DNA of 64,000 bases from Arthrobacter sp. NEB 688 (GTDB taxonomy: Bacteria > Actinomycetota > Actinomycetes > Actinomycetales > Dermatophilaceae): positions 744,001 through 808,000 of the forward strand of contig NZ_CP053707.1 in NCBI RefSeq assembly GCF_013201035.1. The letters are read 5' to 3'. The notes under the pieces are model-generated. The model saw nothing but the letters and a program-made list of their open reading frames with translations. It searched no databases and was not told the DNA's origin. Shown here piece by piece: positions 1-25,819 of this stretch. Position 1 is the first letter of the stretch, and the number at the start of each line of letters is the position of its first letter. A program made the position numbers and the translations under genes.

Positions 1-870
1 GGCGTCCCGCACCACACCGACACCTCGGTCATCCTCTACAACAAGGCCCTGCTGGAGTCGGCCGGCGTCACCGAGGTGCCGACCCGCCTCGAGGACGCGT
101 GGACCTGGCAGGAGTTCGAGGCCGTCGCGAAGCGGCTGCGCGAGAACCTGCCCGACGACAAGTGGCCCTTCGCCTACAACTGGCAGGGCAACGGCGTCAC
201 GCGCTGGCTCAGCTGGCTCTTCGAGGCCGACGGCCGCTTCCTCACCGACGACCTGACGGCGGCCGCCATCGACTCCGACGCCGGCCGGGCCGCGGTGGAG
301 TTCACGCAGGGCTTCTTCCGCCAGAACCTGGTGCCGCAGAACAGCTCGGTGAAGTCGTCGACCTACGCCGCGGACCTCTGGTACTCCGGCACGACGGCGA
401 TGAACTTCGGCGGCGCCTTCCTCGTCCCGGACGCCACGAGCACGGTCGACTTCGAGTGGGGCGTCACCTTCCCGCCGCGCGACGCCCGGTCCGCGGGTGA
501 CTTCGGCGGCAATGCGCTCGTCGCGACGAAGGGCGTCGAGGACCCCGCGCTCGTGGCGAAGTTCCTGGACCACGTGACCCAGAAGCAGCCGATGGCCGAC
601 TTCTGCGCCGGCGCCTCGCTCCTGCCCACGCGCGCCGACCTCGTGCAGGAGGGCATCGAGTTCACGGTCCGCCCCGAGCTCTCGCCCGTCTTCGTCGCCC
701 AGGCCGGTGCGGTGCTGCCGCAGGACTCCGGCCAGGTCGCCTCGCCCTCGATGTCGGCGATCATCACCGTCCTCAAGGACCAGCTCGAGGAGGCGTTCGT
801 CGGCGACCAGGACGCCGCGACCACCGTGCGCAACCTCGCCGACGGCATCGGCGCCGCCGTCGCGCGGTGA
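1..870 (+). CDS. Sugar ABC transporter substrate-binding protein (5' end outside window)
   Basis: The reading frame is open from base 1 and encodes 289 residues of the C-terminal part of a family 1 extracellular solute-binding protein. Such lipoproteins capture sugars outside the membrane and deliver them to a MalF/MalG-type permease. The fold is recognisable from the HTDTSVILYNKALLESAG hinge stretch, followed by WTWQEFEAVAKRL and a later PPRDARSAGDFGGNALV segment. The signal peptide and lipobox lie to the left of the window. The stop codon overlaps the GTG of the next gene, so this is the first visible gene of a three-gene sugar uptake operon. No ATPase gene is visible; such systems often share an MsiK-type ATPase. 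The substrate cannot be told. Confidence 0.88.
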   Translation, partial: GVPHHTDTSVILYNKALLESAGVTEVPTRLEDAWTWQEFEAVAKRLRENLPDDKWPFAYNWQGNGVTRWLSWLFEADGRFLTDDLTAAAIDSDAGRAAVEFTQGFFRQNLVPQNSSVKSSTYAADLWYSGTTAMNFGGAFLVPDATSTVDFEWGVTFPPRDARSAGDFGGNALVATKGVEDPALVAKFLDHVTQKQPMADFCAGASLLPTRADLVQEGIEFTVRPELSPVFVAQAGAVLPQDSGQVASPSMSAIITVLKDQLEEAFVGDQDAATTVRNLADGIGAAVAR

Positions 871-1829
871 GCGCCGTCCCCGCCGCCACCGCGGCCGCCA
901 CGCCCCCCGGCGTCAGCACCCCCGAGCCACCACGCCGGGGCCGGCGGGGGCCCCGGCGCGGCGCCGTGACCGAGGCGCTGGCCGCCTACGGCTTCCTCGC
1001 GCCGGGGCTGGCGCTCCTCGCGACGTTCGTCTTCGTGCCGCTCGCCGGCGCCGCGGCCCTCAGCCTCCAGCGCACCAACGGGTTCGGCGACGGTGTCTGG
1101 GTCGGCCTCGACAACTACGCGCGGCTGTTCACCGACCCGGTCTTCTGGCGGGCGACGCTCAACACCGTCCTGTTCACCCTCGTCGTGACGCCGGGGTCGA
1201 TGGCGCTCGGGCTCGGGGCGGCCGTGCTCCTCAACTCGGTGCTCCCGGCGCGCGGTCTGTTCCGGTCGGTGCTCATCCTCCCGATGGCGGTCAGCGGCGT
1301 GGCGACCGCGCTCATCGGCGTCCTCGTCTTCGACCAGAACAGCGGCTTCGCCAACGCCGTCCTGCGCGCCCTCGGCCTGCCCGGGGTCGACTGGCAGTCC
1401 GGCGGCACCGCGGCGTTCGTCACGGTCGTGCTCGTGACGCTCTGGTGGAGAACCGGTTTCAACATGCTCATCTACCTCGCCGGGCTCCAGGGCGTGGGGC
1501 GCGAGATGATCGAGGCGGCCACCCTCGACGGCGCCGGCCCGTGGCAGCGCTTCCGGTACGTCATCGTGCCGATGCTCGGGCCGTCGTCCTTCTTCCTCGT
1601 CATCATGAACGTCATCTACTCGTTCCAGGTGTTCGACATCGTCTTCGTCCTCACCGGCGGGGGTCCGCGCAACGCGACGACCGTGCTCGTCACCTACGCG
1701 TACGACAACGGCTTCGTCACCCGCGACCAGGGGTACGCCGCGACCATCGGCGTCTTCCTCCTCGTCGTCAGCCTCGTCTTCACCGCGCTGCGCTGGCGCA
1801 CGAGCCGGACCCGGGACCTGGTCGGATGA
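867..1829 (+). CDS. Carbohydrate ABC transporter permease, MalF type
   Basis: A 320-residue inner-membrane permease subunit that pairs with the next gene product. A Pro/Arg-rich cytoplasmic N-terminus (about 1-35) is followed by six hydrophobic segments. The EAA loop that docks on the ATPase is REMIEAATLDGAGPWQRF around residues 212-229. The GTG start overlaps the upstream stop by 3 bases and the 3' end overlaps the MalG gene, so the subunits are translationally coupled. Family assignment is firm; the transported sugar is unknown. Confidence 0.9.
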   Translation: MSAVPAATAAATPPGVSTPEPPRRGRRGPRRGAVTEALAAYGFLAPGLALLATFVFVPLAGAAALSLQRTNGFGDGVWVGLDNYARLFTDPVFWRATLNTVLFTLVVTPGSMALGLGAAVLLNSVLPARGLFRSVLILPMAVSGVATALIGVLVFDQNSGFANAVLRALGLPGVDWQSGGTAAFVTVVLVTLWWRTGFNMLIYLAGLQGVGREMIEAATLDGAGPWQRFRYVIVPMLGPSSFFLVIMNVIYSFQVFDIVFVLTGGGPRNATTVLVTYAYDNGFVTRDQGYAATIGVFLLVVSLVFTALRWRTSRTRDLVG

Positions 1830-2689
1830 GCGCCGCCCCCGCCCCTGCTCCCGGCCGGGCCGCACGTCGCCGTCGCCGTGACCGTTGGATGCCGGCGCGC
1901 CTGGCCGCGGCCGTCGTCGTCTCGCTCGTCACGCTCTTCCCCCTCTACTGGATGGTCGTCGTCGCGCTCACCTCCCGCTCGGAGCTGCTCGGCGGCACCC
2001 TTCGCCTCGTCCCGCGGGAGCTGACGCTCGATAACTTCCGGCGCGTCCTCGACGCCTTCCCCGTCGCCGCCTGGGTCGGCAACTCGGTCGCCATCTCGCT
2101 CACCGTGTCGCTGCTCTCGGTGACCGTGAGCATGCTGGCCGGGTACGCGTTCGCGCAGCTGCGCTTCCCGGGCTCGACCGCGCTGTTCCTGCTCACTGTC
2201 GCCACGGTGATGATCCCGCTGCAGGTGATCATGGTGCCGCTGTTCCGGGTCGTCACGTCGATGGGGCTGTTCGGCAGCTACTGGGCCGTGATCCTGCCGA
2301 CGGCGGCCAGCGGGTTCGGCGCCTTCCTCGCGCGCCAGTTCGTCCTGGCCATCCCGCGCGAGCTCATCGACGCCGCCCGCGTCGACGGCGCCGGGCACCT
2401 GCGCATCTTCCGGTCGATCGTCCTGCCGCTCAGCCGCCCGCTGCTCGCGGTGCTCTTCTTCATGACGCTGCTCTCGTCGTGGAACGACCTCGCCTGGCCG
2501 CTGGTCGCCCTGCAGGACAACGCCCTCTACACGCTGCCCATCGGCCTGCTCTACCTGCAGGGGCAGCTCGGGTCCGACTACGGCGGCACGATGGCCTTCG
2601 CCATCATCACGGTCGCGCCGATGGTCGCGCTCTTCCTCGTGGCCCAGCGCTACTTCGTCGAGGGGTTCGCCCGCACCGGCATCCGCTGA
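1826..2689 (+). CDS. Carbohydrate ABC transporter permease, MalG type
   Basis: A 287-residue second permease subunit of the sugar importer. The start is the ATG that overlaps the MalF stop (ATGA); the frame is open further upstream, but that part is the antisense-like shadow of malF. A basic N-terminus leads to TM1 around residues 27-45 (SLVTLFPLYWMVVVALT). The EAA loop is RELIDAARVDGAGHLRIF around residues 175-192, and the C-terminus (YFVEGFARTGIR) is typical of MalG-like proteins. It is the last gene of the operon and ends 3 bases before the convergent aminoglycoside phosphotransferase-like gene. Confidence 0.9.
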   Translation: MSAAPAPAPGRAARRRRRDRWMPARLAAAVVVSLVTLFPLYWMVVVALTSRSELLGGTLRLVPRELTLDNFRRVLDAFPVAAWVGNSVAISLTVSLLSVTVSMLAGYAFAQLRFPGSTALFLLTVATVMIPLQVIMVPLFRVVTSMGLFGSYWAVILPTAASGFGAFLARQFVLAIPRELIDAARVDGAGHLRIFRSIVLPLSRPLLAVLFFMTLLSSWNDLAWPLVALQDNALYTLPIGLLYLQGQLGSDYGGTMAFAIITVAPMVALFLVAQRYFVEGFARTGIR

Positions 2690-2692
2690 CGC

Positions 2693-3550
2693 TCAGGCGA
2701 CCTCGTCGAGCAGCTCGCGCAGGGCGCGCTGCTGGACGAGGTGATGGGGACCGTCCGGGTCGGTGACCAGCGCCTTCCACAGCGCCCAGCCGCGGGCGCG
2801 CTCCCAGACGTCGTCGGGGAGGTCGACCGCCTCGCGGAAGACCCGTCGTTCCGTGGCGTCGAAGAGCGTCCACGCGACGACGAGGTCGCACGCGGGGTCC
2901 CCGACCGCGCAGGTGCCGAAGTCGATGAGCGCCGACAGCCGCCCGTCGTGCACGAGGAGGTTGCCGACCGCGACGTCACCGTGCACCCACACGGGGTCGG
3001 CCGACCAGGTCGAGCCCGTCGCCCGCTGCCACACCGCCCGGCAGGTCGCCGGGTCGACATCCCCTGGTCGCTCCGCCAGCACGTCCTCGACCTCGTGGGC
3101 GTAGACCCGCAGGTCGCCGCCGCGGTGGAACGAGTGCTCTCCGGCCGGGGGGCCTGCGGCGGCCGGCACCTCCCGCAGCCGGCGCAGGACCGTGCCGAGG
3201 TCGGCGGCGAGGAGCATCCGGTCCAGGGCGTCGACGTGGTCGGGGGTCTCGCCCTCGAGCCACCGGCGCACCGACCACGGGAACGGGAAGCCCTCCCCGG
3301 GACGGCCGGTCGCGACGGGCACCGGCACCGCGACCGGTAGGTGCGCCGCGAGGTGCGGCAGGACGGCGTCCTCCTTGGCGATGCCCGCGACGTAGCGCTC
3401 GTGCGACGGCAGTCGGACCGCGAGGTCGTCCCCGAGCCGGAAGGTGCGGTTGTCGTGGCCCTGCCGGGGGACCGCCCGCACGGGGAGCCCGGCCCACGGC
3501 GGCAGCTGGGCGTCCACGAGCCGGCGCACCAGCGCCTCGGTGATCTCCAC
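2693..3550 (-). CDS. Aminoglycoside phosphotransferase-family (APH) kinase
   Basis: A 285-residue protein kinase-like small-molecule phosphotransferase. The catalytic loop is HGDVAVGNLLV (around residues 190-200), with the metal-binding IDFGTCAVGDPACDL downstream. The GTG at 3550 is chosen because homology-like sequence (VEITEALVRRLVD) begins there and upstream residues are low complexity. Such APH-fold proteins phosphorylate aminoglycosides, macrolides, choline or homoserine-like substrates, and the sequence does not show which. The gene lies 52 bases after the FAD monooxygenase on the same strand, so it may be read from the same message. Confidence 0.8.
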   Translation of the reverse strand: MEITEALVRRLVDAQLPPWAGLPVRAVPRQGHDNRTFRLGDDLAVRLPSHERYVAGIAKEDAVLPHLAAHLPVAVPVPVATGRPGEGFPFPWSVRRWLEGETPDHVDALDRMLLAADLGTVLRRLREVPAAAGPPAGEHSFHRGGDLRVYAHEVEDVLAERPGDVDPATCRAVWQRATGSTWSADPVWVHGDVAVGNLLVHDGRLSALIDFGTCAVGDPACDLVVAWTLFDATERRVFREAVDLPDDVWERARGWALWKALVTDPDGPHHLVQQRALRELLDEVA

Positions 3551-3602
3551 GCGGGCCAGTCTGTGCGGCGGACCCGTTCGGCGCCAGCCGTTTCCGCTCG
3601 TG

Positions 3603-4778
3603 TCAGCTCGGCGGGAGCCAGCCGAGCGGGGCGAGCAGCTCGTCCTGCGCCGACAGCGAGGCGCCGGCCACGAGCTGGGCGTCACGGACGTCGCGCCACG
3701 GCCCGTCGGGCACGTGGAGGGTCGCCGCGAGGTGACGGGAGGCGACCTGGGCCTGGGCGGCGCGCGGCGCCCGCAGCCGGCTGTAGCCGGCGAGGCGGTC
3801 GACGACCCCGGCGGACCCCGGCGCCCCGAGGCAGCGGCCGAGCACCCAGGCGTCCTCGAGACCCTGGTTCACGCCCTGCGCGGCGAAGGGGAGCATCGGG
3901 TGCGCGGCGTCCCCGATGAGGACGACCCGCCCGTCGGCGAGGCGGTGCAGCGGCTCGCGGTCGTGCAGCGCCCAGGCGCTCGTGGCACCGACGCGGGCGA
4001 CGATCCCGGCCAGGAGGTCGTCCCAGCCGAGATAGGCGGCGAGCAGCTCGTCGACCGGTGCCGGGGCGGTCCAGTCCTCCCCTCCACGGCTGGAGGGCAC
4101 GACGGCCACGATGTTGAGCATCTCGCCACCGCGGATCGGGTAGACGACGGCGTGCGAGCCGGCGCCCACCCAGATGCGCACGACGGGCTGCGCGGCCTCG
4201 GGCGGGCAGAGCATCGTGGGGACCAGGGCCCGGTAGGCCGCGAGTCCGCTCGCGACGGGCGCGTCCGGGGCGAAGACCCCGCGGACCGTCGAGCGGATGC
4301 CGTCCGCCCCGACGACGAGGGACCCCTCCTCGACGGTGTCGTCGTCGAGCGTCACCCGGGCCCCCTCGGCCCCGGTCCCGACCGCCGTCACGCACGCCCC
4401 GAGCCGGAGGGTGTCGTCCGGGACGGCCGTGAGCAGCGCGTGCTGGAGGTCGGCCCGGTGCACCGCGAGGTAGGGCGCGCCGTAGCGGTCCTCGCAGGTG
4501 TCGCCGAGCTCGGTGCGGCTGATGACCTCGCCGCGCCAGGACCGCACCTCGCGGTAGGACACCGCGACCGCGCGCTCGAGCACCTCGTTGAGGACGCCGG
4601 TCTGCCGCAGCAGGTTGACCGAGCGCGGGGAGAGCTGGACCCCGGCGCCGATCTCGTCGAGCGACGACGCCCGCTCGAGGACGGTGCTGCGGTGGCCGAG
4701 CCCGCCGAGGGTGGCCGCCAGCATGAGGCCGGCCATCCCCCCACCGACGACGACGGGGTGCGGTGCGCGCGTGGTCAT
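3603..4778 (-). CDS. FAD-dependent aromatic-type monooxygenase
   Basis: A 391-residue class A flavoprotein hydroxylase of the salicylate/3-hydroxybenzoate hydroxylase type. The N-terminal dinucleotide-binding motif is VVGGGMAGLMLAATLGGLG, the mid-protein DG motif is VVGADGIRSTV, and the FAD ribityl-binding GD motif is VLIGDAAHPMLPFAAQG near residues 280-300. The ATG at 4778 lies one base after the regulator's stop codon, so the gene is probably co-transcribed and coupled to the LuxR-type regulator of the thiopeptide-like cluster. It is a candidate tailoring oxygenase, but a separate aromatic catabolic role is equally compatible with the sequence. Confidence 0.82.
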   Translation of the reverse strand: MTTRAPHPVVVGGGMAGLMLAATLGGLGHRSTVLERASSLDEIGAGVQLSPRSVNLLRQTGVLNEVLERAVAVSYREVRSWRGEVISRTELGDTCEDRYGAPYLAVHRADLQHALLTAVPDDTLRLGACVTAVGTGAEGARVTLDDDTVEEGSLVVGADGIRSTVRGVFAPDAPVASGLAAYRALVPTMLCPPEAAQPVVRIWVGAGSHAVVYPIRGGEMLNIVAVVPSSRGGEDWTAPAPVDELLAAYLGWDDLLAGIVARVGATSAWALHDREPLHRLADGRVVLIGDAAHPMLPFAAQGVNQGLEDAWVLGRCLGAPGSAGVVDRLAGYSRLRAPRAAQAQVASRHLAATLHVPDGPWRDVRDAQLVAGASLSAQDELLAPLGWLPPS

Positions 4779-4779
4779 C

Positions 4780-5529
4780 TCAGAGCCACCCCTTGTCGTG
4801 TGCCTGCCGGGCGGCCTCGTAGCGGTTGCGGGCGCCGAGCTTGCGGATGGCGGAGGAGCTGATGTTGCGGACGGTCCCGCCGGTGAGGAAGAGCCGGGTG
4901 GCGATCTCCTTGACCGGCAGACCCTCGGTCGTCAGGAGGAGCACGTCGCGCTCCCGCGGGGTCAGGGTGCAGCCGGCGGCGTCGTCGCCGGTGGGGGCGA
5001 ACGAGGTGTCGATGGTCGGGCAGCCCATCGCCGTGCCGCGGACCGCGTGGAGCAGGTGCGCGAGGCCGGCCTGGTGGCTCAGGAGGCTGATGTTGCCCTG
5101 GCGCAGCGCCGTGTCGACGGCGGCGCGGGAGGGCTCGGTCGCGACGACCACGACCCCGCAGCGGTGGGTGGCGGCGATCTCCTTCGCCATCTCGAGCTGC
5201 GGCTGGCCGGCCACGCCGGCCAGCAGGACGACGTGCGGCCGCCACTGGGCGACCACGTCGCTGACCTGCTCCAGGCCGTGGACGAGCTTGATGGCCGCGA
5301 AGTCCCCGGAACCACCGAGGCTCTGGGCCAGGACCTCGCCGGTGAGGCGGCACGGGTGGCCGACGACGAGGCGCAGGACGGCCTGCGGCTTCTGCCCGCC
5401 GGTGGCGGGGGCGGTCGACCCGGCGCGCACGGCCTCGGGTCCCGGTGTGGGGTAGGGGTGCTCGGGCGCCAGGGTGGCGGTGGGCTTGAGCGTCGGGGCG
5501 GTCGGCACCCGGTGGGTCGTGATGGTCAT
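4780..5529 (-). CDS. LuxR-family cluster-situated regulator with degenerate receiver domain
   Basis: A 249-residue DNA-binding protein. Residues 1-50 are disordered. Residues about 51-165 look like a response-regulator receiver fold, but the strand that normally ends in the phospho-acceptor Asp reads HVVLLAGVAG, with Ala104 at the expected position, so phosphorylation is unlikely. Residues 187-249 form a LuxR-type HTH (LTPRERDVLLLTTEGLPVKE). The ATG at 5529 is preceded by GGAGG and overlaps the stop of a 24-codon sORF (ATGA). The gene is probably the activator of the adjacent peptide cluster, and the TGAC-N4-GTCA palindromes are proposed as its operators. Family is clear; the role is inferred from position. 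Confidence 0.82.
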   Translation of the reverse strand: MTITTHRVPTAPTLKPTATLAPEHPYPTPGPEAVRAGSTAPATGGQKPQAVLRLVVGHPCRLTGEVLAQSLGGSGDFAAIKLVHGLEQVSDVVAQWRPHVVLLAGVAGQPQLEMAKEIAATHRCGVVVVATEPSRAAVDTALRQGNISLLSHQAGLAHLLHAVRGTAMGCPTIDTSFAPTGDDAAGCTLTPRERDVLLLTTEGLPVKEIATRLFLTGGTVRNISSSAIRKLGARNRYEAARQAHDKGWL

Positions 5530-5722: not shown

Positions 5723-5828
5723 CCGCGCGCGCCGCCTCGCGACACCCCGGCCGCCGGCGCCGGTCATCCCCCCCCGGTCCCCGCTCGGGCGAGCAGGACG
5801 GGCCGGCATCCGCGCCCGGGCAGCACGA

Positions 5829-5860
5829 CAGGACCCACCCGGTGCACCGGGTGGGTCCTG
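5829..5860 (-). terminator. Terminator behind the precursor-peptide gene
   Basis: An almost uninterrupted hairpin, CAGGACCCACCCGGTG paired with CACCGGGTGGGTCCTG, extends outward with one bulge (AGCACGA/TCGTGCT). It begins 26 bases beyond the precursor stop codon. A terminator directly after a RiPP precursor is expected because the precursor is usually made in excess over the enzymes. Confidence 0.8.
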
Positions 5861-5885
5861 TGGTCGTGCTGCGCGTGAACGGTGT

Positions 5886-6044
5886 TCAGCAGGCGGAGCA
5901 GGTCGAGCTCGAGGAGGACGAGGTGCCGATCGAGCCGCTCGACGCGCCCATCTCGGGGAGGGCGGTGCCGTCGGCGGCCTCGAGGACCTCGACGTCCTGG
6001 ACGTCGAAGCTGTCGAACGTGATGTCCTGGGTGTCCTTGCTCAT
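5886..6044 (-). CDS. Thiopeptide/TOMM-type precursor peptide
   Basis: A 52-residue peptide with an acidic leader (MSKDTQDITFDSFDVQDVEV...) ending TALPEMGA, then an 18-residue core SSGSIGTSSSSSSTCSAC. The LPE.GA|S junction is the signature of thiazolylpeptide precursors; the lactazole precursor has VALPENGAS at the same place. The core has only two Cys, at positions 15 and 18, while eleven Ser and two Thr could be dehydrated or cyclised to (methyl)oxazoles. The ATG at 6044 is preceded by AAGGAG. The gene is monocistronic, with its own terminator. Cleavage after Ala34 and modification of the core are inferred from family knowledge. Confidence 0.85.
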   Translation of the reverse strand: MSKDTQDITFDSFDVQDVEVLEAADGTALPEMGASSGSIGTSSSSSSTCSAC

Positions 6045-6715: not shown

Positions 6716-7816
6716 ATGACCGCCACGACGACCCCCGTCACCCCCCGCCGGGAGGTGGTGGGCCTGCGCGTCCACACCCACGGCGAGGTCACCCCGACGT
6801 GGGTCCGTGACTGCGTGCTCCCCGTGTGGGAGGAGGCGCGCCGGGGTGGCCGGCAGCTCGTGCGGATGCGCCGCGGCTGGGTCGGCGGCCCGCACGCCGA
6901 CGTCGTCGCCCTCGGCCCCGCCGCCCCCGCCGGGACCTGGGCGGCCCTCGCCCGGACCGTCGACGCCGGCCCGGCCCCGACCACGCCGCTCGACCCGGCG
7001 GAGTACCTCGACCGGGCCCGCGTCCGCGGCCGCCTCGAGCACGTCCCGCCTCCCTACCTCCCGCTCCGCGAGCACGGCGCGACCCTCCTCCTCGACGAGA
7101 CCGCGGCGACTCCGACCGGCCCGACCGCGCCCCTGCGCTCGCTCGCCGACGCGGTGCTCGCCCCGGCCGTCGCCCGGAGCGTCCGCACCGTGGCGGACGA
7201 CGCGGACCGCCTGCCCGCGACCCTCGTCGACGTCCTCACCGTCATCGCCGACGCCCACGTGATGGGCCCCGGCTTCGGCACCTTCTCGCTGCGCTCCCAC
7301 GCCGAGGCGCTGCTCGCGGCCTGGTCGCCCCGCGGCGACCTGCGGCCCGAGTTCGTCGCGCGCTACGCGGCGCAGCGCCCCGCCGTCACCGCCCGCGTCG
7401 AGACCCTGCTCGCCGGGGACGGCGGCGGCGACGTCACCGCCTGGCGCACCGCCCTCGCCTACACCCGGGGTGTCCTCGACGAGTCGGTGCGCCGCGGCGA
7501 GCTGACCAACGCCATGGTCGACGCGGCCGCCGCCCCGACGGCGACCGCACGCCCCGCGACCGGGGACGACCACCCGGACACCGACTTCCACCGCACGGTC
7601 TACGGCTCGGGCGCGACCGACGGCGCCGGCGAGTGGTTCGCGGCCTACCGCGTGCTCGTCAACTGCGTCTACGGGCAGCTCCCGCTGCTCGGCGTCGCGC
7701 CGCTGCACCGCGCGTGGGGATGCTTCGCCGTCGCCGAGGCCGTCGACGACGTGCTCGGCCAGACGTGGACCGACCGGCTGGCCACCGCCGGCACGCACCA
7801 GGAGGAGACCCGATGA
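6716..7816 (+). CDS. SpaB_C-like thiopeptide biosynthesis protein, candidate pyridine synthase
   Basis: A 366-residue protein starting at an ATG with GGAG upstream. It has the layout of the split LanB C-terminal (SpaB_C) family: an N-terminal GLRVHTHGEVTPTWVRDCVL stretch, a central HVPPPYLPLREHGATLL segment, GFGTFSLRSHAEALLAAW near residue 185, and a helical C-terminus ending LGVAPLHRAWGCFAVAEAV. Thiopeptide clusters carry two such proteins, one eliminating glutamate from Ser/Thr (TbtC-like) and one catalysing the [4+2] macrocyclisation (TbtD/LazC/TclM). The gene at 15409 is the better TbtC match, so this divergent one is assigned as the likely pyridine synthase. Overlap of the stop with the dehydratase start shows coupling. 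Confidence 0.62.
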   Translation: MTATTTPVTPRREVVGLRVHTHGEVTPTWVRDCVLPVWEEARRGGRQLVRMRRGWVGGPHADVVALGPAAPAGTWAALARTVDAGPAPTTPLDPAEYLDRARVRGRLEHVPPPYLPLREHGATLLLDETAATPTGPTAPLRSLADAVLAPAVARSVRTVADDADRLPATLVDVLTVIADAHVMGPGFGTFSLRSHAEALLAAWSPRGDLRPEFVARYAAQRPAVTARVETLLAGDGGGDVTAWRTALAYTRGVLDESVRRGELTNAMVDAAAAPTATARPATGDDHPDTDFHRTVYGSGATDGAGEWFAAYRVLVNCVYGQLPLLGVAPLHRAWGCFAVAEAVDDVLGQTWTDRLATAGTHQEETR

Positions 7817-10407
7817 CCGACCTCGCCGCCCGCCCCGCCCCGAGCACCGCGTCGCCCGTCGACGCCGGGCCCGTCTGGTTCCACCGGGTCAACCCCTTCA
7901 CCCGGGCCCGCCTCGCGGACGCCCACCTGACCGACGCGGTCGCCGCCGTGCTGGCCGCCGAGCAGGAGGTCGCGCGGGCTGCGGACGCCGCCGGCGCCGC
8001 GCTCCACGTCCTCGTCGGCGAGGCCACCGACCCGGACGCCCGCAAGGCCCTCCTCGCGACGAGCCGGGCCCTGCGCCGCGGCAAGCAGCTCCCCGCGGGC
8101 GAGCACCCGGCCGAGGTCGACGCCTGGCTGGCCGCCACCGCGCGGCGCGACACCGCCCTCGCCGCCCTGCGCGCCGACCACGACGACGCCCTCGCCCGCG
8201 AGCGCCGCGAGCTGGCCCGCCAGCTGACCGACCCCGACCTGCGTGCCTCCCTCGAGCTCGTGGCCCCGGAGGTCGCCAAGCAGGCCGGGCGCTACGTCGA
8301 CGCCGTCGCCCCCACCGGGCGGGCCGCCAGCCGGGTGCTCAAGTCCGAGCGCGGGCTCGTCCAGTACGTGATGCGCGCCGCCGTCCGCACGAGCCCTCTC
8401 TCGCGCCTCACCGCCGTCGGGCTGACCCACTCCGAGCCGGGCGGCGCGCACCCCGACCGCCCGGTCGTCCTCGGTGAGCGCAGCGTCTGCTCCCTCGACC
8501 GCGTCATGCTCGACCACGTCGTCGGCGGCGCGCTCGAGCGTGACGGCGTCCTCGGCCCGGACCCGTACATCGGCATCCCGCCGACCGGGGCGACCGACGG
8601 CGAGCGCCTCTACGTCCTGCGGCCCACCGCCGAGGGCTGGCAGCGCGTCGGGGTGCCGCTGGCATCGCCGCTGCGCCAGCTCGTCGAGGGGGTCGCGACG
8701 GGGCCGGCGCCCCTGTCGGTCGTCGTCGACCACCTCGTCGACACGGTCGGCACCACCCACGCGGACGAGCACCTGCGCGAGCGCCTGGAGCAGTTCGTCC
8801 GGACGGCGGCCGAGCGCGGCCTCGTCTGCACCCTCGCCCCGAGCACCGACGACGACCTCGCCGACCTCACCCCGCGCGGCTCGGGCCTGCTGGCCCGCCA
8901 CCTGCCGGGCGTCGCCGCCGACCTCGCCGCGCTGGGGGAGGCCCCGGCCCACGAGCGCCGTGCCGTCCTCGACCGCCTCGACTCCACCCTCGGCGACCTG
9001 AGCCGGGCCGCCGGCCGACCCGCGCGCATCGGGGTGACCGAGGACCGGTTCGTCGAGCTCGCACCCGTGGACGACGCCCACTGGCGGCCCGCGCTCGACG
9101 ACCTCGGCCCGGCCGTCGACCTCCTCGCCACCTTCGACTGGCTGGCCGACGTCGCCGTCGCGCTCGGCGAGGCGTTCGTCGCCCGCCACGGCGCCGGCGC
9201 CACGGTGCGCCTCGTCGACGACGCCCCGGCCCTCGTCGCCGCCGTCACCGAGGCCGCCGGGCGGATGACCCGCGTCTACGCCGAGGCCGCCGACGACCCG
9301 TCGGTGCTCGACACCATCGGCGGCGCCGACTCCACCCTCGCCCGCCTCTACGCGGTGCGCCGTGGGGTCGAGGACGCCGTCGGTGCGGCGGTCGACGACG
9401 CCCTGGCCCGCGGCCTCGACGAGGTCGTCCTCACGCACGCCGACGTCGACCGGCTCCTCGCCGGGATGCCCGAGCGGCTGCGCGAGCGCCCGCTCGGCTA
9501 CGGGGTCCTCGTGCAGTCCCTCGGCGGGCGCCTCGTCGTCAACGACGGGCTGCCCGGCCACGGGATGCTCTTCTCCCGCTTCCTCGGACCCGACCGCGCC
9601 CTCGGCGGCGACACCCTCGAGCGGCTGCGCGCCGGCCTCGAGGCGCGCTACGCCGAGCCGGGCAGCACCCTCGTCGAGGACCGCAGCCACCACGGGATGA
9701 ACGTCAACGTCCACCCGCCCGTCCTCGACGACGTGCTCGAGCCGCACGACTGGCAGCGCCTCGAGCTGCGCCACGACGCGGCGAGCGACCGTCTCGAGGT
9801 CCTGGACGGCGGGCGCCGGCTCAAGGTCCTGCCTGTCGGCGGCGGTCATCCCGGCCTGTACCCCCCGCCGCTGTCGGTGGCGTCCGGGCTCGTCATCGCC
9901 GGCCGCCTCTACAACGGTCTGCCCGACGCCTGGGCCGAGCGCGACGGTCGTGACCGCACGACCACCCGTCGCGTGCCCCGCGTGCTCGTCGGCGACGTCG
10001 TCGTCAGCCGGGCCCGCTGGTACCCGGGCGAGGACCTGACCGCCGCGCTCGCCGAGCCGGACGAGGCCGACCGCGTCCTCGCCGTCGCCCGCTGGTGCGC
10101 CACCCACGGCGTCCCGCGCGAGGTGGTCGTCAAGTCCGTCCCGGCCGACACCGGCCCCGCCTCGGTCGGCAGCCCGGACGCCCAGGCGGTCCGGTTCCGC
10201 AGCAAGCCCCAGTACGTCGACCTCGGCAGCGCCCTCTGCGTGCGGGTGCTGCCCCGGATGCTCGAGCGGCGCGGCGGCGAGGACGCCCCCGCCCTCTACC
10301 TCGAGGAGGCCGCCCCCGGGGTGGTCGACGGCACCCACGCCGCCGAGTGGGTGCTCGAGGTCTCCCGCCCCGCGGGGGGCCGGTTCAGCCACGGAGGAGA
10401 ACGATGA
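7813..10407 (+). CDS. Lantibiotic dehydratase N-terminal (glutamylation) protein, TbtB-like
   Basis: An 864-residue protein matching the N-terminal domain of LanB dehydratases. These transfer glutamate from glutamyl-tRNA to Ser/Thr side chains of the precursor. The diagnostic stretch is YVMRAAVRTSPLSRLTAVGL around residues 185-204. The ATG at 7813 overlaps the upstream stop (ATGA) and is preceded by GGAGGAG; the frame is open further upstream but that part is the shadow of the previous gene. The elimination domain is absent here and is supplied separately by the gene at 15409, the usual split arrangement of thiopeptide clusters. The core offers eleven Ser and two Thr as substrates. Confidence 0.85.
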   Translation: MTDLAARPAPSTASPVDAGPVWFHRVNPFTRARLADAHLTDAVAAVLAAEQEVARAADAAGAALHVLVGEATDPDARKALLATSRALRRGKQLPAGEHPAEVDAWLAATARRDTALAALRADHDDALARERRELARQLTDPDLRASLELVAPEVAKQAGRYVDAVAPTGRAASRVLKSERGLVQYVMRAAVRTSPLSRLTAVGLTHSEPGGAHPDRPVVLGERSVCSLDRVMLDHVVGGALERDGVLGPDPYIGIPPTGATDGERLYVLRPTAEGWQRVGVPLASPLRQLVEGVATGPAPLSVVVDHLVDTVGTTHADEHLRERLEQFVRTAAERGLVCTLAPSTDDDLADLTPRGSGLLARHLPGVAADLAALGEAPAHERRAVLDRLDSTLGDLSRAAGRPARIGVTEDRFVELAPVDDAHWRPALDDLGPAVDLLATFDWLADVAVALGEAFVARHGAGATVRLVDDAPALVAAVTEAAGRMTRVYAEAADDPSVLDTIGGADSTLARLYAVRRGVEDAVGAAVDDALARGLDEVVLTHADVDRLLAGMPERLRERPLGYGVLVQSLGGRLVVNDGLPGHGMLFSRFLGPDRALGGDTLERLRAGLEARYAEPGSTLVEDRSHHGMNVNVHPPVLDDVLEPHDWQRLELRHDAASDRLEVLDGGRRLKVLPVGGGHPGLYPPPLSVASGLVIAGRLYNGLPDAWAERDGRDRTTTRRVPRVLVGDVVVSRARWYPGEDLTAALAEPDEADRVLAVARWCATHGVPREVVVKSVPADTGPASVGSPDAQAVRFRSKPQYVDLGSALCVRVLPRMLERRGGEDAPALYLEEAAPGVVDGTHAAEWVLEVSRPAGGRFSHGGER

Positions 10408-13400
10408 GACTCAAGGCCCGCCCCGACCTGCACCACGCACCACTGCCCGACGGCGTCTACGTCAGCTCCGGCACGGGGGAGTTCGCGCTCTCCGGGTGGT
10501 CCGGCTTCGCCGACCTCATGGCGCGCTGCCTCCCGCTGCTCGGTGAGGGCGCCGACGAGGACGACCTCGTCGGGGCCATCGGCACCGAGAAGGCGCGGCC
10601 GGCGGTGCAGCACCTCCTCGGGCAGCTCGAGGCGCACGACATGGTGCTGCGGCTGGACCACCTCGTCCCCGACGCCCCGGTGGGCGCCGACCGCGAGCGC
10701 CACGCCGAGCTCCTCGCCTACCTCGAGTGCCGCTCGGCCCAGCCGTACGCGGCGTTCGAGGAGATCCTCTCGGCCCGCATCCTCCTCGTCGGCCCGGACG
10801 ACGCCCTGGCCGTCGCGGGCAGCGCGCTGCGCGGGCTCGGCATCGACGGCGACGTCGAGGACTCCGGCCGCGAGCACGACGTGGCGGTCACCGTCCTCCC
10901 GCGCGACCGTGTCGGGGACGTGCCGCCGCGCGCGAGCCGGGTCCTGCCCGTCGTCGTGGGCGAGCGGGCCTCTCTCGTGGGGCCGCTCGTCCACGACCTG
11001 CGCGGCTGGACGCGCTGGCGGACCCTCGTCGACCGGACGCTCGACCGCGAGGGACCGGTCGTCGACGAGGCCGCCGCGACCGCCGTCGCCGTGTCGTCCG
11101 CCGTGCACCTGCTGCTCCAGGACCTCGCCTCGGTCGCCGGCCCCGACGCCTACGTCGTCTCCGGTGACACCCTTGGCGTGCGGGCGCTCGACCTGCCGCC
11201 CGAGACCCCCCACGACGGCGCCGAGGCGACCCTCGGCACGGTCGACGACGAGGGTGCCGACGCCGACCTCGCCGGATGGCTCGCGCGGCTGACCGACCCC
11301 TGGCTCGGGCTCGTCGACCCCGACGACGAGGACGCCCTGCCGCAGATGCCCGTCGCGCTGCGCCGCCTGCGCACGGCCGACCGCGGCGTCGTCGTCGCGG
11401 AGGGCGTCGACCAGCAGCACGCCGCCGCCGCGGCGACCCTCTCGGTGGCCCGACGGGTCAGCGGCGGTGGCGCGGCCGGCACGACGGGACGGCGCTGGCT
11501 GCTCGACGGCGCCCTGCGCCTGCTCGCGGCCCGCGCCGCCGGCGGCGACCCGCTGGAGGTCGACGACCCCCGCGGCGTCCGGCTCGTCGACGCCCTGACG
11601 ACGGTCGGCGCGGCACCGCGCCTCACCGTCCACGGCCTGCCCGGCCTGGGCTGGGTGCTCGCCCGGTGCGCGCTGGCCGACGGCCGCGCGACGACGGCCT
11701 GGGGACCCGACGCGCAGGCGGCCGCCCTCGACGCGCTCTCGCGGGCCGTCGCCGTCCACACCCTGCCGGCCGAGGGCTCGATGCTGCTCGGCGCCCCCGG
11801 CACCGCGGCGCTGCGGACCGCGTCGGCCGCCGCCGTGGCGACGCTGGCCGACGACCTCGGCCGCTGGCTGGCCGTCCGCGGCTTCCGGCTCGTCGGGCGC
11901 GCCCACCCGGCCGACCCGCACCTGGGCCCGGCCCCGCTGCACGCCGGCCAGGTGCGCATCGTCGAGGAGCCCGACGCCCCCCGCGGCGCCGCCCGGACCG
12001 GCACCGTCGACGCCATCGCGGCGCAGCTGGGGTCCCGGACCGGTGCGGCGGTCGTCGCCACCGCCGGCTGGGACCACGACGCCCTCGAGCGCGCGCTCCA
12101 CACGGCCCGCGCCGGGGGCACCGCCCTCGTCCCGCTCCAGACGACGGCCGACGCCGTCGTCGCCGGGCCGGTCTGGTCGCCGACCTCGACGGCCGGCTGC
12201 CCCGCGTGCGCCGAGACCCGCCGACGCACCGTGCTCGACCACGTCCTCGGCACCGACCTGCGGGTCGCGACGACCCCCAGCGGACCGGCCCCGGCCAGCC
12301 TCCTGGAGCTCGCCGCCACGACGCTGCGGACCACGCGCCCGCTGCGCGAGGGCGAGGTCGTCGTCGTCTCGACCGACGGGGTGACCCGGCACGACGTGCT
12401 CCGCCACCCGACCTGCCCCTGGTGCGGTCCGACGACGGGGTCGGCACCGCCGGCCGGGCTGGCCCTCGTCGACGAGCCGGTCGACGCCGGTGACCCGACC
12501 CGCGTCGCCGCGGGCACCCCGCTGCTGCGGGCCGACCGGCTCGCGGCCGCCGTCGACGACCGGTACGGCCCGGTGCGCGGCATCCTGCGCGAGGAGGCCG
12601 TCCCCTACGCGATGAGCATGGCCGTGCTCGCCGGCGGTCCGGTGATGGGCCACGGCCGCGCCCTGTCCTTCGACCAGACCCGGTCGGTCGCGGTGCTCGA
12701 GGCGTACGAGCGGCTCGCCGGGTTCCCCTACGAGGCACCGATCGTCGAGGACCGCACCTACCGCGAGGTCGCCGCCGACGCCGTGGACCCGCTGCGGCTG
12801 GGGCGCTACTCCGCGGAGCAGCTGGCCCACCCCTCCTCGAAGGTCGAGGCGTACGGCCCGGACGTGCCCCTCGACTGGGCCTGGGGCGTCGACCTCGCGA
12901 CGGGGCGGCCCCGGCTCGTCCCGGCCGAGATCGGCTTCTACCAGTACGACCACGCCTTCAAGCGCGACCTGCGCCGCTCGCGAGCGGCGAGCCCCGAGCA
13001 GCGTCGGCGCCTGTTCCTCGAGTCCTCGAGCGGGTGCGCCCTCGGGTCGAGCCTGGCCGAGGCGACGGTGCACGCGCTCTTCGAGGTCGCCGAGCGCGAC
13101 GCCTTCCTCCTCTCGTGGCACCGCGCGGCCCCGCTGCCGCGCATCCCGGCGAGCGAGCTGGCCGACCCGGTGGTCGACGCGCTCGTGGCGCTCGTCGAGT
13201 CGCGCGGTCTCGACGTGCACTTCCTGCGGGCCACGCAGGACGTCGACCTGCCCGTCGTCTGGGTGCTGGCGGTCTCGCGGGACGGGTGCTTCCCCGCGTC
13301 GTTCACGAGCGCCGGCTCCGGGGCCGACCCCGTGTCGGCGGCCCGCTCGGGCCTGCGCGAGGTCGCGCAGCTCGCGACGATGCCGCTCGACTGGGACCAC

Positions 13401-13832
13401 GCCGACGCCCTCGCGCTCGTCGAGGACTCCTGGCGGGTGCGCGAGCTCGAGGACCACGTCCGCTGGTCCTCGGCGCCGGAGGTGCTCGACCGGGTGACGA
13501 CCGTCCTCGGCGGCCCGGACGTCTCGCTGGCCGAGGCCTTCCCCGGGTGGCCGGCGGCCCTCACGCCGGCCGACGGCAGCATCCTCACGACGCTCGGGCT
13601 CGTCGCGGACCGGTTCGGGGCCGCGGGCCTCGACGAGGTCGTCGTCGTCGACCAGTCGACGCGCGAGCACCGCGACCAGGGGCTGCACGTCGTCAAGACC
13701 GTCGTGCCGGGCACCGTCCCGATGGTGTTCGGGCAGGCGCACCAGCGCCTCCTCGGCATCCCCCGGCTCGAGGCCGCGCTCGCGGGCGGCGAGCCCGGGC
13801 CGCACCCCTTCGACCCGCACCCGTTCCCGTGA
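10404..13832 (+). CDS. Fused TOMM cyclodehydratase: RRE/ThiF-like partner plus YcaO
   Basis: A 1142-residue protein expected to bind the leader peptide and convert Cys/Ser/Thr of the core to azolines using ATP. Residues about 1-85 resemble a leader-binding winged-helix RRE. Residues about 125-235 are ThiF-like (ILLVGPDDALAVAGSALRGLG). Zinc-type CxxC pairs lie at C599-C602 (CPAC) and C671-C674 (CPWC). The YcaO domain occupies about 700-1142, with ATP/Mg-binding E873, E886, E894 and E897 in ESSSGCALGSSLAEA...FEVAERD and a second helix GSGADPVSAARSGLREVAQ. The C-terminus is Pro-rich (PHPFDPHPFP), as in active YcaO enzymes. Residues about 300-500 look like a decayed extra YcaO half. The ATG at 10404 overlaps the upstream stop. 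Confidence 0.85.
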   Translation: MRLKARPDLHHAPLPDGVYVSSGTGEFALSGWSGFADLMARCLPLLGEGADEDDLVGAIGTEKARPAVQHLLGQLEAHDMVLRLDHLVPDAPVGADRERHAELLAYLECRSAQPYAAFEEILSARILLVGPDDALAVAGSALRGLGIDGDVEDSGREHDVAVTVLPRDRVGDVPPRASRVLPVVVGERASLVGPLVHDLRGWTRWRTLVDRTLDREGPVVDEAAATAVAVSSAVHLLLQDLASVAGPDAYVVSGDTLGVRALDLPPETPHDGAEATLGTVDDEGADADLAGWLARLTDPWLGLVDPDDEDALPQMPVALRRLRTADRGVVVAEGVDQQHAAAAATLSVARRVSGGGAAGTTGRRWLLDGALRLLAARAAGGDPLEVDDPRGVRLVDALTTVGAAPRLTVHGLPGLGWVLARCALADGRATTAWGPDAQAAALDALSRAVAVHTLPAEGSMLLGAPGTAALRTASAAAVATLADDLGRWLAVRGFRLVGRAHPADPHLGPAPLHAGQVRIVEEPDAPRGAARTGTVDAIAAQLGSRTGAAVVATAGWDHDALERALHTARAGGTALVPLQTTADAVVAGPVWSPTSTAGCPACAETRRRTVLDHVLGTDLRVATTPSGPAPASLLELAATTLRTTRPLREGEVVVVSTDGVTRHDVLRHPTCPWCGPTTGSAPPAGLALVDEPVDAGDPTRVAAGTPLLRADRLAAAVDDRYGPVRGILREEAVPYAMSMAVLAGGPVMGHGRALSFDQTRSVAVLEAYERLAGFPYEAPIVEDRTYREVAADAVDPLRLGRYSAEQLAHPSSKVEAYGPDVPLDWAWGVDLATGRPRLVPAEIGFYQYDHAFKRDLRRSRAASPEQRRRLFLESSSGCALGSSLAEATVHALFEVAERDAFLLSWHRAAPLPRIPASELADPVVDALVALVESRGLDVHFLRATQDVDLPVVWVLAVSRDGCFPASFTSAGSGADPVSAARSGLREVAQLATMPLDWDHADALALVEDSWRVRELEDHVRWSSAPEVLDRVTTVLGGPDVSLAEAFPGWPAALTPADGSILTTLGLVADRFGAAGLDEVVVVDQSTREHRDQGLHVVKTVVPGTVPMVFGQAHQRLLGIPRLEAALAGGEPGPHPFDPHPFP

Positions 13833-15409
13833 GCGTCGCGGCGCCGCCCCTGGCGTGCGGACCCGGGTGGCTGTCGGGGTCCGCGCGCCAGGGCGCGGTG
13901 GACCGCGAGACCCTCTGGTACGACCACGCGCTCGGGGTCGACCGTCCGCAGCCGGCGCCCTGGGTCCTGCGCGGCGAGGCGGGCGACGCGTCGCCGCCGC
14001 CCCCCGAGCCGCTCTCGTCCCTCGTGGCGGGAGCGCCGACCACGCAGCCGTGGCCGCGCGGGCTGTGGGACGACGCACGGCGGACCACGTTCGGGGACAG
14101 CCCGACCGGGGATGCCCGGAGCACGCCGGCGGCCGGGCCGGACGCCCTCCTCCGGCTCGCCGCTCGGGCCGTCGCGGCCGTCCGGCGCGACCCGGACGAC
14201 CCCTACAACGACCACCGTGCCTACGCCTCACCGCGCTGCCTCTTCCCGGTCGTCGCGTCCGTCGTCGTCGACGGGGAGTGGCACGTCCTCGACCCGGACC
14301 GGCGCGCCGTGCTGGCCACCGGGGTCGCCGCCGACCCGGAGCACGCGGCCGGGGCCGTCGCCCTGACCGGCCGGTGGGACGCCGTGCCGTCGGGCTACGG
14401 GTGGTTCCGCGGCAGCCTCGTCGCCCTCGAGACCGGCATCCTCGTGCGGCACCTCGCGGCGCTCTCGCGGCTGGACTCCCTGCCCCTCACGCTGCACGCG
14501 CCCCGACCGGGTTGGGAGACAGGCGCACCCGCGCGGCTGTGGCGCGAGCCCGGGCGCTGGTCGCCGCCGTGGGTCCTGACCCCCACGGCGGCCACCACCC
14601 GACGGCCCGACGGGGTGCCACGGTCGGGACGATCCGCCGCGACCGACCTGTCCGCCGCGACCGACCCGTCCGTCCCGGCTGCCGGGCGACACCTCGACGA
14701 CGCCGCCGCCGACCTCGCCCGCGTCTACCGGTCGCACACCCTCGAGCGTCCGCCGGTCGCCGTCGCCCCCGGCCTGCCGGCCGACCACGACGACGGCACG
14801 GGCACCTGGGCCGACGTGCTCTGGCGCCGCAGCGCCGGCCGGATGCCCCGCGGCCTCTACGGGTTCCGCGTCGCCGACGCCCCCGTGTCCCTCGACGACG
14901 CGCAGGCGCTCGTCCGGTGGCCCCTCGCGCCGTCCCCGGTCGACGACGCGGTCGACGGCCTGCGCCTCCACGCGGTCGTGCGCGACGTGCCCGGGCTGGA
15001 GCCGGGCGTGCACGAGGTGCTCGACGGCTGCTTCCACCACCGGACGGACGTCCCGGACGACGCCGTGCAGCGGCTCGCCGGGTCCTACCTCTACGGCTCG
15101 GACGAGCTCTCCCGCAACGACATCGCCCGCGCCCCCCTCGTCCTCGTCGTCACCACGCGCCCGCGCGCATCGGTGGGGTGCGCCGGACCGGGCGCCTGGA
15201 CGGCGACCCACGTCGCGACCGGCTGGCGCGTCCACGGGCTCGGGCTCGGCGCCGCCGCCCGCCACCTCGTGGCCCGGCCGGTCCGGGCCCTCGACGAGCG
15301 CGACGTCGCCGACGCGCTCGCCCTCGATCCCGACGAGATGCCCGGCATCGCCGTCGTCGTGTCCCACCACGCCCCGCACGGCGGGCTGCAGATCGACCTC
15401 AGGAGCTGA
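13829..15409 (+). CDS. Tandem nitroreductase-fold protein, candidate azoline dehydrogenase
   Basis: A 526-residue protein starting at the GTG that overlaps the YcaO stop (GTGA). Two nitroreductase/SagB-like halves can be seen: about 1-250, with YASPRCLFPVVASVVVDGEW followed by a YGWFRGSLVALETGILVRHLAALSRL helix, and about 280-526, with RSAGRMPRGLYGF followed by ATHVATGWRVHGLGLGAAARHL. In thiopeptide clusters such FMN enzymes oxidise azolines to azoles. The typical PS.GaLYP motif is not well kept, so one half may be non-catalytic. It is distinct from the canonical SagB at 16436, so the cluster carries two dehydrogenase-type proteins. Confidence 0.6.
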   Translation: MSVAAPPLACGPGWLSGSARQGAVDRETLWYDHALGVDRPQPAPWVLRGEAGDASPPPPEPLSSLVAGAPTTQPWPRGLWDDARRTTFGDSPTGDARSTPAAGPDALLRLAARAVAAVRRDPDDPYNDHRAYASPRCLFPVVASVVVDGEWHVLDPDRRAVLATGVAADPEHAAGAVALTGRWDAVPSGYGWFRGSLVALETGILVRHLAALSRLDSLPLTLHAPRPGWETGAPARLWREPGRWSPPWVLTPTAATTRRPDGVPRSGRSAATDLSAATDPSVPAAGRHLDDAAADLARVYRSHTLERPPVAVAPGLPADHDDGTGTWADVLWRRSAGRMPRGLYGFRVADAPVSLDDAQALVRWPLAPSPVDDAVDGLRLHAVVRDVPGLEPGVHEVLDGCFHHRTDVPDDAVQRLAGSYLYGSDELSRNDIARAPLVLVVTTRPRASVGCAGPGAWTATHVATGWRVHGLGLGAAARHLVARPVRALDERDVADALALDPDEMPGIAVVVSHHAPHGGLQIDLRS

Positions 15410-16335
15410 TGACCGTGACCCGCTGGACCTCCCGCCACCTCCACCTCGCGACCGGGGCGGTGAGCGCGCTCGACCGCGTCGTCGAGCACGTCGTCGCCCC
15501 CGCGGCGGCCGAGACCGGCCGCCCGTGGTTCTTCGTCCGGTACTGGCAGGGCGGCCCCCACGTCCGCCTGCGGGTGCGCGACCTCGACGACGCCGCGGCC
15601 GCGCGCCTGACGGCCCGCCTCGAGGAGCTGCTGACGCACCACGGGGCACCCCGCCACGACGAGCCGCCCGTCGAGGCCGCGGCCTACGCGGCCGAGGCGG
15701 GGCGGCAGGCCCGCGGCGAGACCGGCGAGAACCGCCGCGTCGGGGCCCTGCGCCCGCCGGGCGTCCACGGCGCGGACTACGAGCCGGAGCTCGAGCGGTA
15801 CGGCGGCGCGGCGGTGATGGACGCCTCCGAGGAGCTGTTCGCGCGCTCGAGCGAGCTCGTCGTCCGGCTGCTGCCCCGCCTCCCCGACCTCGGGGCCCGG
15901 CGGCAGGCGGCGCTGCGGCTCACCGAGGCCGCCGCACGCTCGGTCGGGCCGGACGTCGCCCGCGCCGTGTTCCACGAGATCGGCCGGCGCTCGTGGGCCG
16001 CCTGGGCGGCCTCCTACGGGTACGAGCCCTCGCTCGTCGCCCGCGTCGCCGCGGTGGGTGCGGCCCCGTCCCCGGCGGCCTTCGCCGAGCTGCCCGGGTG
16101 GGCGCGGGGCTGGCACGACGACGTCGCGGGCCTCGTCGGCACGCTGACCACGGCCGGGGTTCCCCTGCCCGGCACGGTCGTCTCGTCCCACGTCCACATG
16201 ACGCACAACCGGCTCGGGCTGACCATCCTCGACGAGCTGCGCACCTACGCCGTGCTCGCGGCGACCTTCCCGGCGCCCGCCGGCAGCGTCCCGGACCTCG
16301 GCCTCCCGGTCCCGTCCTCCCTGGTCCCGGCCTGA
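15409..16335 (+). CDS. Thiopeptide-type bacteriocin biosynthesis protein, TbtC-like elimination protein
   Basis: A 308-residue stand-alone SpaB_C protein. Family hallmarks are WFFVRYWQGGPHVRLRVR near residues 40-57, YEPELERYGG near residue 124, and SSHVHMTHNRLGL near residue 263, the counterpart of the H.H...NR.G motif of LanB elimination domains. It should remove glutamate from glutamylated Ser/Thr to give dehydroalanine/dehydrobutyrine, working with the 7813-10407 protein. The ATG shares one base with the previous stop (TGATG). It is the last gene of the rightward operon and converges on the SagB gene 100 bases away. Confidence 0.85.
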   Translation: MTVTRWTSRHLHLATGAVSALDRVVEHVVAPAAAETGRPWFFVRYWQGGPHVRLRVRDLDDAAAARLTARLEELLTHHGAPRHDEPPVEAAAYAAEAGRQARGETGENRRVGALRPPGVHGADYEPELERYGGAAVMDASEELFARSSELVVRLLPRLPDLGARRQAALRLTEAAARSVGPDVARAVFHEIGRRSWAAWAASYGYEPSLVARVAAVGAAPSPAAFAELPGWARGWHDDVAGLVGTLTTAGVPLPGTVVSSHVHMTHNRLGLTILDELRTYAVLAATFPAPAGSVPDLGLPVPSSLVPA

Positions 16336-18486: not shown

Positions 18487-18564
18487 CGGACGGTCCTCTC
18501 TCGGTGGTCGGTCCAGCCTCGCCGCGGGACCGTCCGGGGGGCAGTGGCAGCCGCCACCGGTCGG

Positions 18565-18582
18565 GGATGACACCTGTCATCC
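18565..18582. promoter_or_regulatory. Candidate cluster operator 4, 18-bp palindrome
   Basis: GGATGACA-CC-TGTCATCC is a perfect 18-bp palindrome containing TGAC-N4-GTCA, centred 88 bases upstream of the membrane protein/sagB operon and about 125 bases upstream of egtB. It is the most symmetrical of the four sites and marks the right edge of the cluster. Its orientation cannot tell which divergent unit it controls. Confidence 0.55.
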
Positions 18583-25769: not shown

Positions 25770-25819
25770 GCCGCCGTACTCTAGGCGCATCCCCGACGAC
25801 GGACGGCCCTGGAGGCGCG

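Follow-up and report, generated by a model that had tools for sequence, protein, structure and literature searches.

A thiopeptide-type precursor with an identical core in four families is encoded beside genes for 3,4-AHBA

The window analysed here (the whole stretch of 64,000 nucleotides, from a genome that is presumably Phycicoccus and of the same genus as P. avicenniae, G267) encodes a 52-residue thiopeptide-type precursor, a set of thiopeptide enzymes and, just beyond its left edge, genes for 3-amino-4-hydroxybenzoate (3,4-AHBA, also AHBA below). Because the precursor cluster and the AHBA genes sit together, and because the 18-residue core SSGSIGTSSSSSSTCSAC is invariant, we consider it probable, with moderate confidence, that this conserved hybrid cluster makes a product in which a peptide of thiopeptide type is linked to an aminophenol derived from AHBA. 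Coordinates of the features are collected in table 1.

Table 1. Features of the precursor locus. Positions are those of the window unless given for the neighbouring stretch L129, in which the window starts at 11502.
Feature	Position	Strand	Basis or remark
Multicopper oxidase	L129 5466-6788
AMP-ligase	L129 6921-8336
DeoC-type aldolase	L129 8375-9127
AHBA synthase	L129 9177-10280		NF002625, NF041224
FAD-dependent monooxygenase, 3-hydroxybenzoate/salicylate hydroxylase type	3603-4778	-	NF006021
LuxR/response-regulator-type regulator	4780-5529 (start inferred)	-	PF00196
Strong stem-loop just 3′ of precursor stop	5820-5872 (limits approximate)	-	fold of 5885-5810
Thiopeptide-type precursor gene	5886-6044	-	52 aa; core codons 5942-5889
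TbtD/PbtD-like pyridine synthase	6716-7816	+	NF045556, PbtD 5w98, alignment
TbtB-like Glu-tRNA-dependent glutamylation enzyme	7813-10407	+	profile of 15 sequences
Leader-binding (RRE/E1-like) protein fused to YcaO cyclodehydratase	10404-13832	+	TIGR03882, TIGR03604, PF02624
Divergent nitroreductase-like protein	13826-15409 (start approximate)	+	PF00881
TbtC-like glutamate elimination enzyme	15406-16335	+	PF14028 (E 2.9e-34), TIGR03891
SagB/ThcOx-family azoline dehydrogenase	16436-18580	-	TIGR03605, PF22767

The precursor gene and its thiopeptide enzymes

The original prediction of a precursor at this place proved real, and the strand, which it did not state, is the minus strand: the gene reads from 6044 to 5886 as the leader MSKDTQDITFDSFDVQDVEVLEAADGTALPEMGA followed by the core and a stop codon, with a Shine-Dalgarno-like AAGGAG at 6057-6052 ahead of the ATG at 6044. 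The plus-strand reading of the same positions bears no relation to the precursor. Three precursor models recognize the protein above their cut-offs (NF033400, 52.6 bits against 30; TIGR03892, 33.6 against 25; PF19409, 41.4 against 23.5), so that the leader and Ser/Cys/Thr core typical of a thiopeptide precursor are both present, and these matches, together with the conserved context, rule out a chance ORF. A precursor search of the same genome returned the precursor itself as the sole match. Two further points of the prediction also held: the LPE.GAS junction recurs as LPENGAS in the lactazole-type clusters L044 and L045, and the would-be macrocycle is free of Cys, as the core has none ahead of residue 15. 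The stem-loop that follows the stop codon (−56.2 kcal/mol, z −7.1) is terminator-like without a T-run, and its central hairpin is the same in P. avicenniae (L008 9230-9330, compared by eye); its role may be to insulate a precursor transcript made at a high level. The LuxR-type regulator has in-frame homologues in 6/6 of the other groups compared.

The TbtB, TbtC, YcaO and SagB homologues that had been claimed as neighbours were all borne out by profile or family matches. The YcaO domain (PF02624, E 3.3e-67) comes with its leader-binding partner (TIGR03604 and TIGR03882, both over their cut-offs), and a split LanB is made up of the TbtC-like protein (PF14028) and the TbtB-like protein. As a single query, the latter matched nothing in Pfam or NCBIfam and nothing significantly in the PDB; a profile built from 15 sequences matched TbtB (6ec7, E 1.4e-40) and the goadsporin enzyme (9jhq, E 1.2e-31). 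PF04738 was detected in 10 of these 15 sequences, the window member not being among them. The clear SagB is the azoline dehydrogenase on the minus strand, which scored 169.3 bits against TIGR03605 (cut-off 78.4). The gene between YcaO and TbtC gave only a weak nitroreductase match: PF00881 was found in 9/9 members of its group (best value 1.6e-8), the window member standing at 0.0084, under the cut-off. All 11 identical-core clusters examined, that of the window among them, have a SagB-family dehydrogenase; none was found in the cluster stretches of G655 and G479, two genomes with the CC-type cores described below. We also observed a weak DUF7010-like match within the SagB-family ORF of P. avicenniae, in its N-terminal part (L099 1833-2006), and in several relatives a DUF7010-like gene adjoins the TbtD-like gene.

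Linkage to the 3,4-AHBA genes

A comparison of clusters across families yielded, as common genes beyond the thiopeptide set, an AHBA synthase, an aldolase, an AMP-ligase, a multicopper oxidase and a DrrA-like transporter. The 3,4-AHBA synthase of the window strain is of the DHQS-II type, and its gene stops 1.2 kb short of the window's left edge. The synthase scored 526 bits against NF002625 (cut-off 375) and 505.1 bits against NF041224, under the exception cut-off of 750; its counterpart in G763 scored 596.6 bits against BagC/FevH (exception cut-off 750). The aldolase is 63% identical to that of L081, a PF01791 match. Both a GriI-type aldolase and a GriH-type (DHQS II) synthase of the 3,4-AHBA pathway thus lie left of the window. 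The sections available of a published account assign roles in this pathway to GriI, GriH, an AMP-binding protein and an o-aminophenol oxidase (PMC10179220). According to the same sections, the grixazone (gri) and ahbamycin (ahb) clusters have, as here, the GriI-type aldolase, GriH-type synthase and AMP-binding ligase, with the o-aminophenol oxidase in gri, whereas the products described there include no ribosomal peptide, unlike the window cluster (PMC10179220).

The distance between precursor and AHBA synthase is at most 7.2 kb in 12/12 identical-core genomes other than P. jejuensis, where the two genes lie approximately 6.2 kb apart in the same locus. Among 10 genomes with CC-type cores (G655, G479, G857, G813, G826, G876, G896, G943, G696 and G752), eight have the synthase within 3.7 kb of the precursor; in G696 it sits on another contig, and G752 gave no match at E 1e-10. 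G235, a member of the window's genus that lacks the precursor, had no AHBA synthase match either. Across the 246 genomes of genus g126 (presumably Streptomyces), the synthase was found in 16 of the 20 with any precursor match, G791 being counted here although its core was left out of the reading, versus 31 of the 226 without (Fisher p 8e-10, relatedness ignored), and wherever both occur they are never more than 6.7 kb apart. The four precursor genomes without the synthase are G752, G911, G925 and G961, the precursor matches in the last two being weak.

Gene order was compared as well. In G422, G479 and G655, precursor, AMP-ligase, aldolase, AHBA synthase and FAD monooxygenase follow one another in that order on a single strand, while in Phycicoccus and G763 precursor and AHBA genes run in opposite directions. 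The multicopper oxidase is present in the window genome, in P. avicenniae, in G532 and in each of the six g126 clusters retrieved; it was not found in the cluster stretches of G422 (identical core), G655 and G479, and the P. jejuensis stretch begins too late to cover its position. The FAD monooxygenase (NF006021, E 1.4e-69, under the cut-off) was found in 8/8 identical-core clusters with both flanks covered, and in G422, G655, G479 and G876 its gene stands after that of the AHBA synthase; judged by sequence and position, it is a probable part of the AHBA module. Its match in G422, which is weak (41%), on a long branch and adjoins the AHBA synthase, may be a paralogue. In the window strain the AHBA genes and the FAD monooxygenase are some 4.8 kb apart, with sugar-transport genes in between; positions 1-3685 of the window hold genes for a sugar ABC transporter and for a phosphotransferase of the APH family. 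This APH-like gene (2693-3685) was rejected as part of the cluster, since P. jejuensis alone of the relatives compared gave a match, which spanned 27 residues. In P. avicenniae the corresponding gap is only about 0.6 kb.

These data bear on the reading that two separate pathways are simply neighbours, one for an ordinary thiopeptide and one for a free AHBA-derived small molecule such as a pigment or metal binder, with a common locus and perhaps common regulation. The AHBA synthase matches in g126 genomes without a precursor and the opposed gene directions in Phycicoccus and G763 are in keeping with it, as is the fact that no obvious coupling enzyme was found among the genes common to clusters across families. 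Tight linkage in 13/13 identical-core genomes from four families and in most CC-type-core genomes speaks against it, as does the fact that in G422, G479 and G655 the row of AHBA genes starts with the precursor, and we regard separate pathways as unlikely. A stand-alone Condensation-domain protein (24444-25790) has a 72% identical counterpart in P. avicenniae; as a coupling enzyme it is not supported because, among the groups compared, only P. avicenniae has a match.

Constancy of the core

The core occurs letter for letter in 13 genomes from four families, as 21 copies in 13 DNA versions: the window genome, P. jejuensis, P. avicenniae, G422, G532 and 8 of the 246 g126 genomes, where it comes in tandem pairs. 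Its Ser codons swap between TCN and AGY at six of the 18 positions with the residue unchanged, and the leaders vary (56% over the aligned part in G422). The enzymes, by contrast, have diverged. TbtD of the window is 96% identical to that of P. jejuensis NRRL B-24460, the closest named relative found; its distance to the nearest non-Phycicoccus entries is 1.71-1.92 substitutions per site, and that of TbtB 1.35-1.42. A core drifting at the TbtD rate would, by simple arithmetic, be expected to show approximately 30 changes in its 18 residues; the identical-core set shows none. Thiopeptide enzymes were found in 10 of the 12 other identical-core genomes, these ten being the ones checked (G753 and G871 were left out). 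The identical-core group was monophyletic in only 15% and 14% of 200 bootstrap trees. The precursor occurs in 2 of 396 genomes of the order (the window genome and G267), and any TbtD match in 21 of 394 genomes of the class.

The lone core variant found, T7 to I, belongs to an orphan precursor of G911 (L058, L083). This gene has no ATG at the usual place (by eye), neither TbtD nor AHBA synthase gave a match anywhere in the G911 genome, and no thiopeptide enzyme was found within the 20-kb stretch around it; the gene looks like a remnant. The related CC-type cores, encoded beside sister enzymes, vary even among the copies in one genome (SSGNALCC..., SSGDTSCC..., STGNTMCC..., SKGDFTCC...); therefore invariance is no general property of the precursor family. 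A C-terminal Cys is present in every identical-type and CC-type core read. The sister precursors were seen in L059-L064, L067, L068 and L092, with cores like SSGxxxCC(S)nCC, and a single genome can have as many as three that differ from one another; they mostly adjoin AHBA genes, and the ring sizes that they imply would be unusually large. A precursor pattern search in L038-L040 gave none, the precursors there lying outside those stretches.

The same core is already in print. It is given for thiopeptide BGC 18 (RS25565-25620) of Streptomyces venezuelae NRRL B-65442 in two papers (PMC9769785, PMC11256431), which in the portions available call the cluster a thiopeptide and do not mention a linkage to AHBA. 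A search of the open-access literature for the core fragments SSGSIGTSSSS, TSSSSSSTCS and SSGSIG returned only these two. The cluster is marked ND in one table, seen as an extract lacking its column heading. Presumably the same cluster is listed with Lsr2 binding sites in a further paper, as far as its accessible part goes (PMC6584129), and as 'BD-12, cutimycin' in another. Given its occurrence in 13 genomes, the core is not idiosyncratic to the window strain.

A candidate hybrid product and its alternatives

A route to the proposed hybrid can be sketched from the predicted enzymes. The RRE part of the YcaO fusion protein would bind the leader, and YcaO with one or both dehydrogenases would form azoles, probably at Cys15, Cys18, Thr14 and some Ser, other Ser residues being converted to dehydroalanine by the TbtB- and TbtC-like enzymes. 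The TbtD-like enzyme would then join residue 1 to a late Ser and expel the leader. In lactazole, Ser1 and Ser12 close the ring, beside oxazole 11 and thiazole 13, according to the part of the account available (PMC7210931); by analogy, closure between Ser1 and Ser13 is the most likely here, giving a 35-membered ring, although Ser11 or Ser12 could also serve. The aldolase and DHQS-II-type synthase of the same cluster would make 3,4-AHBA, the AMP-ligase might activate it and hand it to the peptide, and the FAD monooxygenase and multicopper oxidase could oxidize its ring. The altered core of the G911 orphan, in a genome where TbtD and AHBA synthase gave no match, fits this reading. Against it weigh the failure to find a coupling enzyme, which is its main gap, the CC-type precursors of G752 and G696 with no synthase linked to them, the opposed strands in Phycicoccus and the 4.8-kb gap in the window strain, the G422 stretches in which no multicopper oxidase was found, the ND mark on the S. 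venezuelae cluster, and the TbtD-like and AHBA synthase scores, which stay under the strict equivalog and exception cut-offs. If the whole core formed a lactazole-like macrocycle, four azoles and eight Dha would correspond to a calculated [M+H]+ of 1336.389, by a formula that reproduces lactazole A at m/z 701.20; AHBA bound as an amide or ester would add 135.032.

More tentatively, such a product may found a new hybrid class of ribosomal peptide, a thiopeptide-type macrocycle carrying an AHBA-derived aminophenol, possibly attached via the C-terminal Cys, with a core whose freezing across four families would fit one conserved receptor or metal and not a variable weapon. Known thiopeptides obtain side-groups from tryptophan-derived acids (indolic acid, quinaldic acid). 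If the proposal is true, a thiopeptide bearing AHBA would connect a ribosomal peptide to an aminophenol in a new way and bring in redox or metal-binding chemistry; a link between a thiopeptide or other ribosomal peptide and 3,4-AHBA is not described in the passages covered of the open-access papers PMC11213898, PMC10972967, PMC6395733, PMC10221052 and PMC11881777. The frozen core also raises the question of what keeps a secondary-metabolite peptide from varying, and it means that a single product can be tested for in parallel in several genera, S. venezuelae with its tractable genetics among the candidates.

Queried from 6719, without its first Met, the TbtD-like protein scored 120.8 bits against NF045556 (E 7.4e-35), well under the equivalog cut-off of 325, which leaves some room for a linear or otherwise cyclized azole/dehydroalanine peptide in which this enzyme does not form a pyridine. 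The CC-type cores point the same way: the position of their last Ser before the final Cys run ranges from residue 14 to residue 24, so that ring sizes would differ widely. However, PbtD/TbtD entries are the only PDB sequence matches of the protein (PbtD 5w98, E 6.5e-13), and in the alignment it retains the Tyr at which the PDB variant 8ejz differs, so we judge a product without a pyridine to be quite improbable. The simple linear azole peptide allowed by the original prediction is probably not made, because TbtB-, TbtC- and TbtD-like genes are present; goadsporin-type linear azole peptides are marked by the lack of a TbtD-type enzyme, and the window has a TbtD-like gene.

Berninamycin/sulfomycin-type thiopeptides have a Ser/Thr-rich core and a 35-membered ring and so resemble the window core with its predicted ring; set beside it by description and not by sequence, they are, to our knowledge, free of AHBA. 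That the locus makes an ordinary thiopeptide of lactazole or berninamycin type, its other genes being irrelevant, was the original view and agrees with the full enzyme set and the LPE.GAS junction, but it is very unlikely given the conserved AHBA module, an enzyme clade apart from the lactazole-type enzymes and a core that is invariant whereas related cores vary.

Known systems resemble the hybrid cluster in part. As far as the available text of its description goes, the lactazole cluster (laz, S. lactacystinaeus) has, like the window, a Ser at residue 1, a split YcaO, a split LanB and a pyridine synthase (in the window a TbtD-like candidate), and a further, predicted likeness is the oxazole-Dha-thiazole motif at the second ring residue; in contrast, its core reads SWGSCSCQ..SSSC and its elimination enzyme and dehydrogenase are fused (PMC7210931). 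The window has neither the SWGSC core nor that fusion, its TbtC and SagB genes being separate, and its TbtB and TbtD are only 28% and 25% identical to those of the lactazole-type L044; the core and these enzyme identities rule out lactazole itself. No AHBA module was found in the lactazole-type 20-kb stretches L044 and L045, nor in the accessible part of the lactazole account (PMC7210931). Dehydrazoles and carnazolamide carry dehydroalanine and azoles on a ribosomal peptide, as the proposed product would; in the portion of the source available, dehydrazoles depend on a LanM-type dehydratase (DUF4135) and on a leader resembling nitrile hydratase (PMC10676384). The family matches of the genes scanned here include neither. 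A dehydrazole is ruled out by the lack of a DUF4135 match among the proteins scanned with Pfam, the genes left of the window having been scanned with NCBIfam only.

The right side of the cluster is flanked by ergothioneine-type genes (18698-21009; EgtB-like and EgtD-like by family matches), and an EgtB-like gene flanks the P. avicenniae cluster as well.
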